From Deltaproteobacteria bacterium (GTDB lineage: Bacteria > Desulfobacterota > Desulfomonilia > UBA1062), in NCBI GenBank assembly GCA_018434685.1, contig JAHDOV010000004.1:248001-312000 (forward strand): a stretch of DNA of 64,000 bases, given 5' to 3'. Position 1 is the first letter of the stretch. The number at the start of each line of letters is the position of its first letter. The notes beneath the pieces are model-generated. The model saw nothing but the letters and a program-made list of their open reading frames with translations, did no database searches and was not told where the DNA came from. This document shows positions 24,972 to 32,607 of this stretch, piece after piece. The position numbers and the translations under genes are program-made.

Positions 24972-25688
24972 TTATTTTTTCGGGCCGTAGCGATCTTTAA
25001 TATAGAAAGCAAACCCCTGAGAGATCTCTGTGGTAAGGACTTCTTTCTTTTGATCACGGATGAGAGACATGAGCTCAGTGGGTGTGACTATGCTGATGTC
25101 GTCATACGTTTTGACGTCAAGGCGCTCCACATCGGGAATTACCAGAACCGGCTGCGGCATGACGTCGACCTGGTAACCCTTTTTGAGTACGATGTTGACG
25201 AGGTGACATAACCGCCACAGGTTTCCGGTCAGCGTCTCTATTGTCCGGCCTCCCTGGAACAGGATGTTGTCCCGAATTTCGAGGTCTCCGCTGCCTTTTG
25301 CCTTTTCAATGAGGAAGATCCCTTTGGGAGCAATCACGAGGAATTCAATATGAAAGAGCTCGAATGTGATATTGTGAATAATGTAATGAGAATCGTCCAG
25401 TTTCAGCAGTTGCTCTGCGATCATGCTGTCCTGCCGGAGGCTTTCCAGGTAATCCTGCTTGTTGAGCATCAGTTTCCATCCCTTGGGGTTCACCTTGAAC
25501 GAGACGTATAACATGATTGCAAGGATAATAATGAGAGGTACGGAGGAAGAGGATAACTGTTCGAACCAGTCTTTCGAGAAATCAATCATGAACCCGACAG
25601 TCGCTATCATGACAATCGCCATGAAGGCCAGGTGTCTCAGGAGCGACCTGGAGATGTCCTGGGGGGGGAATCCTTCTATATATGCCAT
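24972..25688 (-). CDS. Membrane-anchored NERD-like (nuclease-related) domain protein
   Basis: 238 residues. Two N-terminal membrane helices (about 16-34 and 48-64) followed by a cytosolic domain resembling NERD: FHIEFLVIAPKGIFLIEKAKGSGDLE (about 112-137) matches the usual xxxD.lvv.p.GifviEvK..sG, though the Asp is Glu here and the E-x-K order reads EKAK. Such domains occur in predicted nucleases and DNA-processing proteins, so activity is uncertain. It sits 130 bp downstream of the transporter gene, beyond a strong hairpin. Confidence 0.55.
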   Translation of the reverse strand: MAYIEGFPPQDISRSLLRHLAFMAIVMIATVGFMIDFSKDWFEQLSSSSVPLIIILAIMLYVSFKVNPKGWKLMLNKQDYLESLRQDSMIAEQLLKLDDSHYIIHNITFELFHIEFLVIAPKGIFLIEKAKGSGDLEIRDNILFQGGRTIETLTGNLWRLCHLVNIVLKKGYQVDVMPQPVLVIPDVERLDVKTYDDISIVTPTELMSLIRDQKKEVLTTEISQGFAFYIKDRYGPKK

Positions 25689-25748
25689 ATAGATACTATC
25701 CTTGAGGAAACGTGCTTTGTCAACGGTATGTATTCTGTGTGGAAGGTT

Positions 25749-25772
25749 GAGCCCCTCCCGCAGGAGGGGCTC
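25749..25772. terminator. Perfect 10-bp hairpin after the 4-hydroxybutyrate operon
   Basis: GAGCCCCTCC - CGCA - GGAGGGGCTC, a perfect GC-rich stem between the transporter stop (25819) and the NERD-like gene. There is no clear T-run on either side, so it could be a terminator helped by other factors or an mRNA-stabilising stem. Confidence 0.5.
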
Positions 25773-25818
25773 ATGGGGCTTAAATAAGATTGAGTATTCG
25801 CTTGTATACCATCAGGTT

Positions 25819-27252
25819 CTACTGTTCGTTCTCCATGATTTCTTTAATATCCTGTGCAATCTTTTCCGGTGAGTCGCAGGGGAAGATAGGCTCTTCAGGT
25901 TCGTAGGCTTTCTTCCACTTGCCGCCGGCATAGATCAGGCCTGTGAGGACCAGTGCTGCGCCAAGACCCCATGCCGCGCCTCTGGTTGCGAGGATGGCTC
26001 CGGCAACACCGGCAATGCCGAGGTCATTGAATGACCGGGACTTCAGTACGCCGACCCGGACACTGACATAACCCTGGATGAGCATGGTGGATGCCAGACC
26101 GACACCGAGGATCGGTTTCACCGTGGAGACGATCGGGGCGAGGAAGTAACCGGTCCAGGTACCCCAGCGGAACGATCCGGCTCCGCCGTTGATGGATTCC
26201 ATGGCCTTGGGGCCGTGTTTGTAGCGTTCGCATACAACCACCTGCATGGCCGCCCACAGCGGTCCGCACATGGAGATGTCCGGTCCGAGAATGCTCATGA
26301 TGGTGTTACGTGCGCCGAAGATGATGTGGGATCTGTTCGGGTTGTAGTCGACGTTCTCGTCAGGCCGGTATTTCTGTGCGTCGTTGAGAAGGGCCTGTGA
26401 CTGGATGACGTCGCCGAACACCACGATATATGCACTGATAACCATGGGAAGACCGGTGAGGAACATCTTCAGCGGAGGCAAGGGGATGGCGCCCATCATG
26501 GTGAAGTCTCTGAACAAGGTTGTGAAATCAGGCCTGGTGAAGATATTGGTGTCATACGTGGGCCATGGAAGCTCGCCCAACATAGGCCCCACGAAGATTG
26601 CCAGCGCCAGGGCAGGCATCATACCGAGGTTTCCGATGTAGTACAGCAGCTTGTTTTTGCGTCTGAGTTGCTTGAAGCTTTCCGAGAAGAGAATGAGGAA
26701 AGCAATGCCGATACAGATAGTGATGGTCCAGGGATTTGAGTCGAAGCTCTTGAGCCCCTCTCCCGGTTTGAACACGAGCATGACCGCTGCGAAACCAGCA
26801 CCAACAAGGATTGCCGACTGGACCGCGTTCGGGATGATAGCGACAAATTTCTTCGCCAATCCGGTGACGCCGAGGAATATACAGAACAGGCCAAAGGTAA
26901 GTTCGAATGCGATCAATGACTGCATACGCTCCACACCCGGTGCAAATGTCTCGCAATATGCGACCAGCAGGGGTATGGCCGGCGTTACCCAGCCCGGTAC
27001 AACCGGGTCGCCGAACGTGACATGGGCGAGGTAGAGTGTCCCATTCAGAATAACAATGGCCAGGGCTACCTCGAAAGACATTCCGAGCTTGCCCGTAAGC
27101 ACCGGAATGATGGCGAGACAGACGGTACACATCAGGAGACCCTGAAGGTAGTCTGCAATCTCGAACCGGTAGTGAATCCCTGGCAGCCTGAGAGTTAAAG
27201 GCCCCAAGGGAATACCGGGCTGAACCTCTCCGTATTCTCTTTTAATACTCAT
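25819..27252 (-). CDS. NCS2-like membrane permease, putative 4-hydroxybutyrate/carboxylate transporter
   Basis: 477 residues, about 12 membrane helices. The sequence resembles the nucleobase-ascorbate (NCS2/SulP-like) permease fold: FGDPVVPGWVTPAIPLL in the N-terminal half and a second half-site SMCGPLWAAMQVVVCERY. It lacks the classical uracil or xanthine signature that I would expect, and lies 67 bp after the 4-hydroxybutyrate CoA-transferase gene in the same direction. Uptake of 4-hydroxybutyrate or a related short acid is inferred from context only. Start has GGGGG four bases upstream. Confidence 0.7.
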   Translation of the reverse strand: MSIKREYGEVQPGIPLGPLTLRLPGIHYRFEIADYLQGLLMCTVCLAIIPVLTGKLGMSFEVALAIVILNGTLYLAHVTFGDPVVPGWVTPAIPLLVAYCETFAPGVERMQSLIAFELTFGLFCIFLGVTGLAKKFVAIIPNAVQSAILVGAGFAAVMLVFKPGEGLKSFDSNPWTITICIGIAFLILFSESFKQLRRKNKLLYYIGNLGMMPALALAIFVGPMLGELPWPTYDTNIFTRPDFTTLFRDFTMMGAIPLPPLKMFLTGLPMVISAYIVVFGDVIQSQALLNDAQKYRPDENVDYNPNRSHIIFGARNTIMSILGPDISMCGPLWAAMQVVVCERYKHGPKAMESINGGAGSFRWGTWTGYFLAPIVSTVKPILGVGLASTMLIQGYVSVRVGVLKSRSFNDLGIAGVAGAILATRGAAWGLGAALVLTGLIYAGGKWKKAYEPEEPIFPCDSPEKIAQDIKEIMENEQ

Positions 27253-27319: not shown

Positions 27320-28612
27320 TTACTTCCTGAATATTCTGGCTGCTTCGCGCTCGAGGTTCTCCCGGAAGTCAGGGTGTGCGATGCTGATGAGCGCCTTTGC
27401 CCGCTCCGGCACCGATTTGCCGCGCAGGTTGGCAATGCCGTATTCGGTAACGATGTAGTGCACATCGGTGCGGGGAGTGGTCACACTTGCTCCCTCGTCG
27501 ATATGGGACACAATGCGGGAGGCGGTTCCCTTTGCAGCGGTAGAAGAGAAGGCCAGGATCGAACGCCCACCTTTTGACCACTGTGCGCCCCGGACAAAGT
27601 CCAGTTGGCCGCCGCTGCCGCTGAACTGACGATAGCCGATGGTGTCGGATACCACCTGTCCGGTGAAATCCACCTGAATGGCGGAGTTGATGGACACCAT
27701 GTTGTCGTTTCGGGCGATGATGCTGGGGTTGTTGGTGTAATCCACGGGAAACATCTCTACGATGGGGTTGTTGTGAACGAAGTTGTAGAGTTTCTCGGTG
27801 CCCATGAAAAAGGTGGCCACCATCTTGCCATTGTGGAAGTTTTTCTTTTTGCAGTTGATAACTCCCTGATGGAACAGGTCAACGACGCCGTCTGAGAACA
27901 TCTCGGTGTGGATGCCCAGGTCTCTCTTGTCTTTCAGCGAGGCGAGCACAGCGTCCGGAAGTCCGCCGATTCCCAGCTGCAGGCAGTCGCCGTTTCTGAC
28001 AAGCTCTCCACAGTTGCGGCCTATGGCTTCGTCCACCGGGTTGATCTTGGCCGGGTGCAGCACGATGGGTTTTGTCTCGGTCTCCACGATGTGGTCGATC
28101 TGTGAGACGTGAATGAAAGAATGCCCCAGAGTTCTCGGCATATAGGGGCTGACCTCGGCAATAACCAGTTTGGACTTCTCAGCTGCCGGTTTCGTGTAGT
28201 CCACCGATATTCCGAAAGAGCAGTAGCCATGTTCATCGGGGGGTGAGAGAAGGCAAATGGTTACATCAACCGGCAGGGCAGAATCGAACATGGAGGGGAT
28301 CATGCTGAAATGACATGGGGTGAATTTGGCCCGGCCTTCCTCGATGGCCTTGCGGCTCGTGCCTCCGGCAAAAAAAGAATTGTGTACAAAGTGTCTGGCA
28401 TTCTCTGGAAGGCAGTACTCGGCCTTGCCCATTGCCACCATGTGAACGATCTCCACATTCTGATAGCTTTCTTTGTTGGCCACTATTGCCCTGAGCAACT
28501 CCTGCGGTTCGCCTGTTGCATGACCGTTGACCACGCGATCCCCTGACTTGATGTGACTGACTGCCTCTTCAGCTGTGGTAAGCTTGCTTTTATAGATGTC
28601 GTGCCAGTTCAT
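27320..28612 (-). CDS. abfT: 4-Hydroxybutyrate / acetyl-CoA CoA-transferase
   Basis: 430 residues of the acetyl-CoA hydrolase/transferase (Cat2/AbfT) family, the usual length. Transfers CoA from acetyl-CoA (or similar) to 4-hydroxybutyrate via a glutamyl-CoA thioester. The likely catalytic Glu237 lies in GIHTEMFSDGVVDL, matching Glu238 of the Clostridium aminobutyricum enzyme; the CoA-contact loop GYRQFSGSGGQLDFVRGA and LGIGGLPDAVL are present. It overlaps the small CGGC protein gene by one base, and the dehydratase gene lies just upstream of that, so the substrate assignment is well supported by context. Confidence 0.9.
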   Translation of the reverse strand: MNWHDIYKSKLTTAEEAVSHIKSGDRVVNGHATGEPQELLRAIVANKESYQNVEIVHMVAMGKAEYCLPENARHFVHNSFFAGGTSRKAIEEGRAKFTPCHFSMIPSMFDSALPVDVTICLLSPPDEHGYCSFGISVDYTKPAAEKSKLVIAEVSPYMPRTLGHSFIHVSQIDHIVETETKPIVLHPAKINPVDEAIGRNCGELVRNGDCLQLGIGGLPDAVLASLKDKRDLGIHTEMFSDGVVDLFHQGVINCKKKNFHNGKMVATFFMGTEKLYNFVHNNPIVEMFPVDYTNNPSIIARNDNMVSINSAIQVDFTGQVVSDTIGYRQFSGSGGQLDFVRGAQWSKGGRSILAFSSTAAKGTASRIVSHIDEGASVTTPRTDVHYIVTEYGIANLRGKSVPERAKALISIAHPDFRENLEREAARIFRK

Positions 28613-28884
28613 CAGATATCTCCTTTAAGTTCCTTGATCAGTGCTTCTGTATCTTTCTCACTAGTGATGATCCGTATGTGTTTCCCTTCGAAGGCATCTA
28701 AGTTTGCACAGGCAGTGTCGCATCCCATGACTGCCAGGATGAAATCGATGCCGGGCTCATCGGGTGAGACGAATTCAATCGTCCCACCCAGTTCCTTTTT
28801 AATACGTTTGACCATATCGACCCGATCGTAGCGCGGGGAGCATCCCCCGCAGTACTTCAGGCCTATCTTTAGAATGTTATTCAT
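28612..28884 (-). CDS. Small CGGC-motif protein of the 4-hydroxybutyrate operon, unknown function
   Basis: About 90 residues. An N-terminal CGGC motif in LKYCGGCSPRYDR is followed by an alpha/beta pattern with two more cysteines (MGCDTACANLD). Similar small CGGC proteins occur beside anaerobic CoA-ester operons in deltaproteobacteria, role unknown; redox or Fe-S handling is possible (inference). It overlaps both neighbours: the dehydratase end (28877-28884) and the CoA-transferase start (28612). ATG 28884 touches its GGAGG with no spacer; an in-frame GTG at 28899 lacks any site, so the start is uncertain. Confidence 0.65.
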   Translation of the reverse strand: MNNILKIGLKYCGGCSPRYDRVDMVKRIKKELGGTIEFVSPDEPGIDFILAVMGCDTACANLDAFEGKHIRIITSEKDTEALIKELKGDI

Positions 28885-30331
28885 CCTCCGGGATACCACA
28901 TAGATGCTTGGCGACGTCCGTCTTTGCTTTCATGTTGATCTGCCGGGCGATCATGATTCGCTGGGCCTGGGGTGAACCTGCTCCGTGCATACTCTCGGTG
29001 AGATAGCCTACAGCTGCGGTACCCAAGGTTATGTTTTCGATCAGCCTCAGCATACGCATTCTGTATTCCGTAGGGACATCCGGGTTGGCCTTGTAGTATT
29101 TCTCGATCCATTTGCCAATTTCCGGTGAGCGCAGGTCTTCTTCTGACGGTAGTGTCACCATGAGTCCGCCGGCGATATCCTGTGCGAGCCGGGCGATCTC
29201 GTAGGGGAAGCGGGTTACGTTCTGCTTGCAGACATTGGCAAGGAGTGTGTTTACGTAGTAGGTGCCGCTAGGTTCTTTGTGACCCTCGGCTGCGCAGGCA
29301 ATAGAACCGCAGAACAGGGTCTCGTTGAGGTGGTTCATCTCGATGATCTTGTCTTTCACGTGAGATGCCTTGTTGGCCCCGTTGTATACGGCAATGTTCT
29401 GGGTGGCGCCGATAAGGACATCACCGACACCGGCTTTGCAGGCGTAACTCTGGCGGTGGTACGATGCGAACTGTTCCACGAGCTGACCGGCAAAATCCCA
29501 CTCTTTGTACATGAATACTCGATCCCAGGGGACAAAGACATCTTCGAAGACCACCAGTGCTTCGTGGCCGCCGTAGAGCTGGTTGCCGCGATCCAAGGTG
29601 CCCTTTTCCAGCTTGCGGGTATCGCATGACTGACGGCCCATGATGTAGATGATTCCCTCGGCATCAGAGGGAAGGGCGAACGAAATGGCATAGTCCTTGT
29701 CTTCCTCTCGCATGCTGATGGTGGGCATGATGATGATTTCATGGGAGTTCACCGCGCCGGTCTGGTGGCATTTTGCGCCGCTGACCACGATCCCGTCGGG
29801 GCGTTCCTCGACCACGCGCATAAACAGGTCCGGATCTGCCTGCTGGTGCGGCGCCTTGCTGCGGTCACCCTTGGGGTCTGTCATGGCGCCGTCACAGGTG
29901 AGGTCGTTTTCCTGTACGAATTCGAGGTATTTCAAAAAGCGCTTGTTATACTCTGTCCCGTACTTCTGGTCGATATCGTAGGTGGTCATGGACAGGGCGT
30001 TCATTGCGTCCATGCCCACGCAGCGCTGGAAACAGCAGCCGGTGAGCGATCCGAGCAGCCGGCCCATCTTCGATTTCTTCACGAGATCTTCCGTACTCTG
30101 GTGAATACTGGTGAAGCGGTTGATTTTCTTGCCCGTGATATGGGAGGTGGTGGTCATGAGGTCCTCATATTCAGGGTAGTGGGCAAATTCATAGGTGGCG
30201 GCCACAGCATTCATGGAGGGGCGTATGATCGGATCGTCCACCGGGTTTTCCACCCGCTTGCCGAACATGTAGACTTTTAAATGTAACTTCCTCAGGCTGT
30301 CTTCGTACTGTTGAGCGTTCATCATTGGCAT
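28877..30331 (-). CDS. abfD: 4-Hydroxybutyryl-CoA dehydratase (vinylacetyl-CoA delta-isomerase)
   Basis: About 484 residues of the 4-hydroxyphenylacetate hydroxylase-like family. Converts 4-hydroxybutyryl-CoA to crotonyl-CoA using FAD and an oxygen-sensitive [4Fe-4S] cluster. The cluster ligands of the Clostridium enzyme (C99, C103, H292, C299) have counterparts: C100 and C104 in LTGCCFQRC, His292 in YHRQSYAC and Cys298. Note the His-Cys spacing is six here. The start at 30331 is chosen because AGGAG lies seven bases upstream; a longer frame to 30394 has no site. First gene of the operon, preceded by a sigma-54-type promoter. Confidence 0.93.
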   Translation of the reverse strand: MPMMNAQQYEDSLRKLHLKVYMFGKRVENPVDDPIIRPSMNAVAATYEFAHYPEYEDLMTTTSHITGKKINRFTSIHQSTEDLVKKSKMGRLLGSLTGCCFQRCVGMDAMNALSMTTYDIDQKYGTEYNKRFLKYLEFVQENDLTCDGAMTDPKGDRSKAPHQQADPDLFMRVVEERPDGIVVSGAKCHQTGAVNSHEIIIMPTISMREEDKDYAISFALPSDAEGIIYIMGRQSCDTRKLEKGTLDRGNQLYGGHEALVVFEDVFVPWDRVFMYKEWDFAGQLVEQFASYHRQSYACKAGVGDVLIGATQNIAVYNGANKASHVKDKIIEMNHLNETLFCGSIACAAEGHKEPSGTYYVNTLLANVCKQNVTRFPYEIARLAQDIAGGLMVTLPSEEDLRSPEIGKWIEKYYKANPDVPTEYRMRMLRLIENITLGTAAVGYLTESMHGAGSPQAQRIMIARQINMKAKTDVAKHLCGIPEDE

Positions 30332-30376: not shown

Positions 30377-30393
30377 ATTCAAGTATGATGCCA
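30377..30393 (-). promoter_or_regulatory. Sigma-54 type -24/-12 promoter of the 4-hydroxybutyrate operon
   Basis: The minus strand reads TGGCATCATACTTGAAT, matching TGGCAC-N5-TTGCW with the correct spacing; the -24 GG is intact, while the -12 GC is GA. Predicted transcription start near 30368, about 37 bases before the dehydratase ATG. A sigma-54 activator gene lies directly upstream of the operon. Confidence 0.55.
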
Positions 30394-30488
30394 ACGAGTG
30401 TGCAAGATAATATAAATCAAATAAAACAGCATGTTGGAGAGCAAACCAAGGGTATTCTCAAGGGAGGCCGCTGCTAAAAGATGATAAA

Positions 30489-30508
30489 ATAATGCAAGAC
30501 CGCATCAT
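30489..30508. promoter_or_regulatory. Activator-site palindrome 1
   Basis: ATAATGCA-AGAC-CGCATCAT, an imperfect copy of the 8-4-8 palindrome at 30592-30611. Centre about 130 bp upstream of the predicted start of the dehydratase operon, a normal distance for an enhancer-binding protein. Confidence 0.6.
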
Positions 30509-30591
30509 GGATGAAGGAAGATTCTGTAAGAGGACTGTTCCAAAGATGATTGATTATAAAATAAACCAATCAAATCCATAAAGTAATTGCA

Positions 30592-30611
30592 ATGATGCAA
30601 ACCTGCATCAT
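30592..30611. promoter_or_regulatory. Activator-site palindrome 2 (perfect)
   Basis: ATGATGCA-AACC-TGCATCAT, perfect 8-bp arms with a 4-bp spacer. Starts 103 bp from palindrome 1 and 102 bp from palindrome 3, about ten helical turns each, so all three would face the same side of the helix. Confidence 0.65.
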
Positions 30612-30693
30612 GCGGAAGAGGTCAAGGGGGGCTTTGTGTAAATGACTGTGGTCATTAAGAATAAAGGATAAAGATATCATATGATTAACAGCA

Positions 30694-30713
30694 ATAATGC
30701 AAAACTGCACCAG
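30694..30713. promoter_or_regulatory. Activator-site palindrome 3
   Basis: ATAATGCA-AAAC-TGCACCAG, left arm identical to site 1 and a weaker right arm. Lies 76 bp from the stop of the activator gene and about 335 bp upstream of the predicted operon start. Confidence 0.55.
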
Positions 30714-30789: not shown

Positions 30790-32607
30790 CTAAGGCTCTT
30801 TGATCTGTTTGAGCTTGCGGGTGATGGTAGAGGGGTCCATCCCGAGGTGAGGCGCGGCCTGCCGTGCATTGCCGTAGCGCTTTACCGCATCGCGGAGAAT
30901 GGCGATCTCCATGTTCTGGAGGTACTCTCTGAGGGAGCACCCGAGACACCTGTCGTCAAAATTCCCCGAGGTATGAAATTCTGCCGGGAGGTGGTGCAGG
31001 GTAATGATATCGCTGTGGGTGATTACCACCAGCCGCTCGATGAGGTTGACGAGTTCCCTGACATTTCCCGGCCAGGTGTACGAACGCATCCGCTCCAGGG
31101 CATCCCGGCTGAAACTTTTTTTCCGCGAGTGTTTGCGGTTGAATTTCTTCAGGTACAGTTCGATCAGCCGGGGTATGTCCTCGCCACGGTCACGAAGGGG
31201 GGGGATATAGATGGGTATGACATTGAGACGGTAGTAGAGGTCCTCGCGGAACTTCTGCTCCTTGATGAGCTCCCTGAGGTCCTGATTGGTGGCACACACC
31301 ACCCGGACATCGACCTTGAGCGGCTTGGTTCCTCCGACCCGGGTGATCTCGAAGCTCTGCAGCACCCTCAGGAGCTTTGACTGCAAGGCAAGGGACATGG
31401 ATTCCACCTCGTCGAGAAAGATGGTGCCCTTGTGGGCAACCTCGAAGAGTCCCATTTTCCCTTCTCTTTTTGCCCCGGTGAAGGCCCCTCTCTCATAGCC
31501 GAACAGTTCACTCTCCAGCAGGGTCTCGGGTAAAGCGCCGCAGTTCAGTTTTACCAGGATACCGTCTTTGTTGCGTCTGGAGCGGGCATGAATCTCTTCT
31601 GCCACCCGTTCCTTGCCTACCCCTGTCTCTCCGTAAATGAGGATTGTGGTATCGGTGTCACTTACCCGCTGGACAAGATCGAATACCGATTGCATGCCCT
31701 TGGAGGCGATAATGAAGTCGCTCCCCAGGCTCTGCATCTGCTGGAGCTGTTCCTTATAGGCGAGGGTCATCTCGATGGAATGTTCCAGCTGCTTGTGGAG
31801 ATTGACCAGATCGGTCATGTCGCGGACATTCGTGACCACCATGATGATCTTGTCGTGTTCGTCGAAGATGGGGTTTCCCGTTACCAGGACTTCCTTGCCT
31901 GTTTTCAGCTTCTGGGTAAGTGTTACCACGCCGTTTTTTTCAAGCACCTTCAGGGTAACGCTCTCGCTGTAGTACCCATCTCTGACCAGGTCACGCATGT
32001 TACGGCCCAGCACCTCCGATGCATTGATGCCGGTGATGATCTCATAAGCCCTGTTGAGCTTGATGGTATTGGCATCTCCGTCTGTGACATAAATGCCATC
32101 GTAGGAAGAGTCGATGATGGCCTCCACCTGTTTGTTGAGTTCCTGGAACTCAAAGAGCCGCTGCGAGATATCGTCGAACACATCCATATCCTGAATGATG
32201 CTGATTACCCCGACGAAGGCATCCTTCCATATCAGGGGGGTGCGGTTGGCAACAAGTGGCCGGATCCCCTTCTGTATCGGGACACCGATTTGGGGTTCTC
32301 GGTTGGCAATGATTTTTTTGAAGTCGATCCAGCGCACCGGGTCGATCTCGGATACGTGCATCGTCTCGGTAGAGATGTCTTTTTGAATGTCGAGAAGTTC
32401 TCGTGCCTTGTCATTCATGAAAATGAAATTGCCATCGAGGTCGGTGGCGGTGATGCCAAAGTAGCACGAGTTCAGCAGTGCACTGGCCAGGGTGTCTTGC
32501 TGCGAGAGGATTTCTCTGATGAGAATGTCTCTGTCTGCCTTCACGATAGAGGTATTCTTGCACGAAAGCAGGGTATTTTCAATTGCCAATTCGGGCAATC
32601 CGGGCAA
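30790..32607 (-). CDS. PAS-domain sigma-54-dependent transcriptional activator
   Basis: About 605 residues. Two N-terminal PAS domains (ALLNSCYFGITATDLDG; EAIIDSSYDGIYVTDGD) joined by a coiled coil to a complete AAA+ domain: Walker A GETGVGKE, sigma-54 contact loop GAFTGA, Walker B GTIFLDEV, and the arginine-finger region RLNVIPIYIPPLRDR. The C-terminus is a Fis-type helix-turn-helix (NARQAAPHLGMDPSTITRKLKQ). The PAS domains suggest control by a small ligand, perhaps a pathway intermediate. It lies just upstream of the 4-hydroxybutyrate operon and is the natural candidate to bind the three palindromes at 30489-30713. The start is uncertain: TTG 32607 or a nearby TTG; no ATG lies upstream in frame. 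Confidence 0.92.
   Translation of the reverse strand: MPGLPELAIENTLLSCKNTSIVKADRDILIREILSQQDTLASALLNSCYFGITATDLDGNFIFMNDKARELLDIQKDISTETMHVSEIDPVRWIDFKKIIANREPQIGVPIQKGIRPLVANRTPLIWKDAFVGVISIIQDMDVFDDISQRLFEFQELNKQVEAIIDSSYDGIYVTDGDANTIKLNRAYEIITGINASEVLGRNMRDLVRDGYYSESVTLKVLEKNGVVTLTQKLKTGKEVLVTGNPIFDEHDKIIMVVTNVRDMTDLVNLHKQLEHSIEMTLAYKEQLQQMQSLGSDFIIASKGMQSVFDLVQRVSDTDTTILIYGETGVGKERVAEEIHARSRRNKDGILVKLNCGALPETLLESELFGYERGAFTGAKREGKMGLFEVAHKGTIFLDEVESMSLALQSKLLRVLQSFEITRVGGTKPLKVDVRVVCATNQDLRELIKEQKFREDLYYRLNVIPIYIPPLRDRGEDIPRLIELYLKKFNRKHSRKKSFSRDALERMRSYTWPGNVRELVNLIERLVVITHSDIITLHHLPAEFHTSGNFDDRCLGCSLREYLQNMEIAILRDAVKRYGNARQAAPHLGMDPSTITRKLKQIKEP

Follow-up and report, generated by a model that had tools for sequence, protein, structure and literature searches.

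Activation of sigma-54 promoters from several upstream sites has a studied precedent in NorR, for which three enhancer sites upstream of the sigma-54 promoter of norVW are essential and scaffold an oligomer or hexamer of the activator, according to PMC2941729, citing Tucker et al. 2010. An earlier note on the locus described below had considered three evenly spaced sites to be more than is common for such activators, a view that this precedent corrects. In Clostridium, the operon abfD-nifU-hyp-ach-golB is predicted to be under the control of XanR, a sigma-54 enhancer-binding protein (Nie et al. 2019, PMC6615313), and sigma-54 control of an abfD operon has thus already been predicted in that genus. 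The same source describes multiple upstream sites as usual in Clostridium and gives the sites of PrdR, the proline reductase regulator, as TGT and ACA, 10-12 bp apart. TyrR boxes are palindromes with an invariant G and C 14 bp apart (PMC4374768). In the literature searched, no operator, promoter or activator assignment for 4-hydroxybutyrate use was reported outside Clostridium.

Here, we report three dyads and a -24/-12 element in a stretch of 64,000 nucleotides from a deltaproteobacterium, hereafter called the window. This array probably constitutes the enhancer and sigma-54 promoter of an operon for 4-hydroxybutyrate use, with the adjacent activator binding the dyads and three dimers giving rise to one hexamer. 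What the sequence itself shows is that dyads and promoter element exist, that both are conserved and that both are linked to the activator; binding, hexamer nucleation, looping and the nature of the inducer are inferred. The locus resembles norVW in its three activator-type sites upstream of a sigma-54 promoter, but NorR senses nitric oxide by a GAF domain and has another motif and another HTH, and a need for three sites is here a proposal. XanR, compared through its description in PMC6615313 only, is likewise a predicted sigma-54 activator of an abfD operon and likewise has an upstream-site motif of its own, while phylum and operon make-up differ.

Results

Gene order in the window runs from the activator gene (30790-32607, minus strand), which the earlier note had rightly placed directly upstream, through the three dyads and the -24/-12 element to abfD (start 30331, minus). 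abfD (28877..30331, minus) encodes 4-hydroxybutyryl-CoA dehydratase (1u8v, E 7.4e-212) and is followed by the genes for a small CGGC protein (28612..28899, minus), for 4-hydroxybutyrate CoA-transferase (abfT, 27320..28612, minus; 3eh7, E 5.3e-160) and for a PurT-like permease (25819..27252, minus; 7tak, E 3.2e-86; no Pfam match). The matches to 1u8v and 3eh7 show that AbfD and AbfT are both encoded, which identifies a 4-hydroxybutyrate operon; it comprises abfD, the CGGC gene and abfT, and probably also the permease gene. The small CGGC protein carries the motif KYCGGCSPRYDR, is without a Pfam or NCBIfam match and trails abfD in most abfD loci, with identity down to about 40%; it appears to be a conserved, unnamed partner of the dehydratase. 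The permease gene is followed by that of a NERD-like protein (24972-27252 for the pair, minus), and in Desulfoluna, Desulfospira and Spirochaetes, abfD loci contain this pair in identical order.

Domain profiles resolve the activator, whose start codon is uncertain, into a PAS domain, a sigma-54 AAA+ domain (PF00158, E 5e-68) with GAFTGA at residue 374, and an HTH_50 domain. HTH_50 (PF18024), which we take to be the TyrR-type HTH, matched at 32.2 bits against a Pfam cut-off of 27, and the Fis model HTH_8 scored under its Pfam cut-off; the Fis-type HTH previously proposed is thus replaced by a TyrR-like one. The genome also encodes RpoN (TIGR02395, 451.6 bits, cut-off 277.35). The top NCBIfam match of the activator was the PrdR model NF041552 (residues 124-601), but its 414.9 bits fall below the cut-off of 795 and the protein was rejected as a PrdR; the PrdR sites given in PMC6615313 differ as well.

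The three dyads lie where the earlier note had located them. The promoter-proximal dyad (30489..30508, ATAATGCA-AGAC-CGCATCAT) forms 6/8 pairs, the middle dyad (30592..30611, ATGATGCA-AACC-TGCATCAT) is a perfect 8-4-8 palindrome with 8/8 pairs, and the distal dyad, closest to the activator gene (30694..30713, ATAATGCA-AAAC-TGCACCAG), is the weakest of the three with 5/8. Loose 8-4-8 dyads with at most two mispairs are by themselves weak evidence in the A+T-rich DNA of the window (6 observed against 2.3 expected), and the dyads are credible because all three share one motif, not because such loose dyads exist. When a weight matrix built solely from 48 sites of other families was scored over the 64-kb window, the middle, proximal and distal dyads took ranks 1, 2 and 8 of all positions, the last with a score of 9.9. 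When the 457-bp intergenic region was regenerated 20,000 times with a first-order Markov model, three sites as good as the weakest dyad arose in 0 cases, and in a pattern search of the 4.29-Mb genome the array was the sole cluster of such sites. Dyads and -24/-12 motif alike are confirmed as real and do not represent a chance pattern. A further near-perfect dyad, AATGAC-TGTG-GTCATT, sits between the middle and distal sites at about 30641-30656, within 30639-30658; its conservation was looked for in relatives and not found.

The -24/-12 element of sigma-54 type is located at 30393-30377 on the minus strand (TGGCATCATACTTGAAT; TGGCATCATACTTGAA at 30378..30393), 62 bp before the abfD ATG (30331). 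It is a weak match, with two departures from TGGCAC-N5-TTGCW and without the usual GC at -12 (TTGAA), and it has a counterpart in every intact array operon.

A scan of genome contigs yielded 80 named abfD loci. Three GATGCA-N4-TGCATC dyads together with a -24/-12 element were found before abfD, or before the linked PurT-like permease, in about two dozen operons, and conservation of this architecture is well supported. In the window's family (G012, G019, G022, G021, G018 and G014) they precede abfD at near-constant positions, with the -24 element 116-117 bp ahead of the aligned start. Desulfoluna species, Desulfospira joergensenii, Dethiosulfatarculus sandiegensis and several MAGs also harbour the triple array and -24/-12 element before abfD. 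The permease has its own triple array and -24/-12 element in Desulfoluna and G028; in Desulfoluna, permease and abfD are each preceded by a triple array. Every intact array, whichever its layout, has three dyads, and more distant homologues are associated with none, one or two matching sites. When the loci with activators of the window's clade (clade A) were aligned, conservation in blocks was largely limited to the dyad cores and the -24/-12 element. In G014, two dyads and TGGCACTTTCTTTGCT are also found before an operon of what look like LamB/YcsF plus KipI/KipA-type (5-oxoprolinase-like) genes (locus L066, 11300-11510), which is a possible second target of the activator.

The array was confined, with few exceptions, to genomic settings that include an orthologue of the adjacent PAS/AAA+ activator. 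For 76 of the named abfD loci the upstream DNA could be read; 13 of these have both an upstream activator and dyads, 3 the activator only, 4 the dyads only and 56 neither (Fisher p 7e-9); the corresponding counts for the -24/-12 element were 16, 0, 4 and 56 (p 4e-13). These loci are not phylogenetically independent and the Fisher test ignores kinship. Most exceptions have an explanation: L108 and L111 are at contig ends, L114 has a degenerate triple, L123 and L126 have a different motif, and L121, the locus of G014, has retained the array with its activator gene 25 kb off. L133, with two marginal sites and without a close activator, is an exception without explanation. G011 was rejected as a counterexample because its array site falls in an assembly gap, as were the Spirochaete loci, whose dyads keep the frame but have another sequence. 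In both G012 and G019, abfD is present in two close copies, of which only the one near the activator has the array. Homologous operons lacking both dyads and -24/-12 element would have spoken against the proposal; operons with the activator have both and, the explained exceptions aside, abfD loci without it lack both.

In the family motif, GATGCA-N4-TGCATC, G and C are 14 bp apart. The outer G is present in 81% of family half-sites and mostly replaced by A in the remainder, as in 3/6 half-sites of the window. This G-N14-C frame and the HTH_50 domain are shared with TyrR and its boxes (PMC4374768); the differences are the half-site, GATGCA here as opposed to TGTAAA in TyrR boxes, the GAFTGA motif of the activator and the -24/-12 promoter. 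Judged by its half-site, the dyad of the window's family is of the TyrR-box frame yet is not a TyrR box. The Spirochaete loci L123 and L126 have GTTTCA-N4-TGAAAC dyads, in which the G-N14-C frame is kept, plus a -24/-12 element; three of these dyads are in tandem 19 bp apart and a fourth lies 163 or 176 bp further. Their activators branch beside clade B, the other activator clade, and differ in the recognition region of the HTH. This joint change of motif and HTH is good indirect evidence that the activator is the protein binding the dyads. Three sites are not universal, since these Spirochaete relatives have four dyads. The Spirochaete-type motif occurs also outside Spirochaetes, in a Desulfobacterales MAG (L163, 42-143) in which two GTTTCA-N4-TGAAAC dyads, spaced by 82 bp, precede abfD close to a contig edge.

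Dyad starts in the window are 103 and 102 bp apart, as the earlier note had it, and at 10.5 bp per turn these distances correspond to 9.8 and 9.7 turns. The description as about ten turns is loose, and the outer pair, at 205 bp, is 19.5 turns apart. Among 19 distinct arrays, those of clade A have 92-102 bp between distal and middle dyads and 78-81 bp between middle and proximal dyads, the 103 bp of the window being the exception, and those of clade B have 16-21 bp and then 60-114 bp. Dyads before abfD recur in related genomes, and the even 102/103-bp spacing is unique to the window among the arrays compared. The two spacing layouts, spread or tandem pair plus one, match the two activator clades, each with full support, in a group test in which L070 was counted with B and unlabelled rows were left out. 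At L070 (8140-8235, in G028), three dyads of the same motif, with spacings of 20 and 59 bp, lie between a distant activator paralogue, far from clade B, and a sugar-type ABC transporter; this genome hence has two regulators with nearly identical motifs. The tandem-pair-plus-one layout is not confined to the abfD regulator, because this paralogue has it too.

Discussion

Comparative genomics supports the earlier suggestion that the 4-hydroxybutyrate operon is preceded by a sigma-54-type promoter and, upstream of it, an enhancer made of activator dyads. In the mechanism that we propose, an activator dimer would bind each GATGCA-N4-TGCATC dyad, and the six protomers on three occupied dyads would, by analogy with NorR, form one AAA+ hexamer. 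Looping of the DNA would bring this hexamer to sigma-54 polymerase at the -24/-12 element, where it would remodel the closed complex once the PAS region signals the inducer, possibly 4-hydroxybutyrate or a related metabolite.

Adjacency of genes is by itself no proof of binding, and the dyads could serve another protein, such as a repressor or global regulator, with the adjacent activator acting elsewhere. We regard this as quite unlikely, since the dyads co-occur with the activator, their layout tracks the activator tree, the Spirochaete motif shifts along with the HTH, and the array of G014 has been kept with its activator gene 25 kb distant. It is barely conceivable that the dyads act as RNA hairpins, such as a terminator or attenuator downstream of the activator gene. 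They do come after the activator stop codon in the window, and one terminator-like match (30728-30704) touches the distal dyad, but they are upstream of the -24/-12 element, their core arms are without covariation, and in G012, G018 and G014 a distance of 2 to 25 kb separates array and activator gene. That abfD is read from an ordinary sigma-70 promoter, the array merely modulating it, is highly improbable, as the one sigma-70-like match in the region compares with 1.7 expected by chance and all array operons have kept the -24/-12 element.

The earlier note had described the array as a helically phased enhancer; on this reading, three dimers on one face of the DNA, some ten turns apart, would require this phasing for assembly. 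The nearly equal spacings of the window fit such an arrangement. So does the distance between -24 and the proximal dyad, which for most clade-A arrays is near 12 turns, a regularity that may stem from shared descent. Against it, the spacings of relatives are 92-100 bp followed by 78-81 bp, or 16-21 bp followed by 60-114 bp; distal-middle distances in clade A have no common phase (R 0.07); the nearest relatives have about 7.5 turns between middle and proximal dyads; and the outer pair of the window is out of step. The clade-A alignment shows extra length between the dyads of the window relative to its relatives, and its even spacing is read as a coincidence for this reason. A phased enhancer is accordingly very unlikely, and helical phasing of the three dyads is not supported as part of the mechanism, in which it would play no role. 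Tentatively, and with somewhat less than even confidence, we suggest that selection has acted on the number of sites and not on their spacing or phase: three dimers would template one hexamer, in two layouts for two activator clades, and in Spirochaetes the motif would have been rewritten within the fixed G-N14-C frame, with four sites.

For sulfate reducers and their relatives, the proposed enhancer and sigma-54 promoter would assign a specific operator, promoter and activator to the use of 4-hydroxybutyrate. The arrays also offer a natural series of three-site enhancers with widely differing spacings, suited to asking if it is the number of dimers or their geometry that a sigma-54 activator requires.
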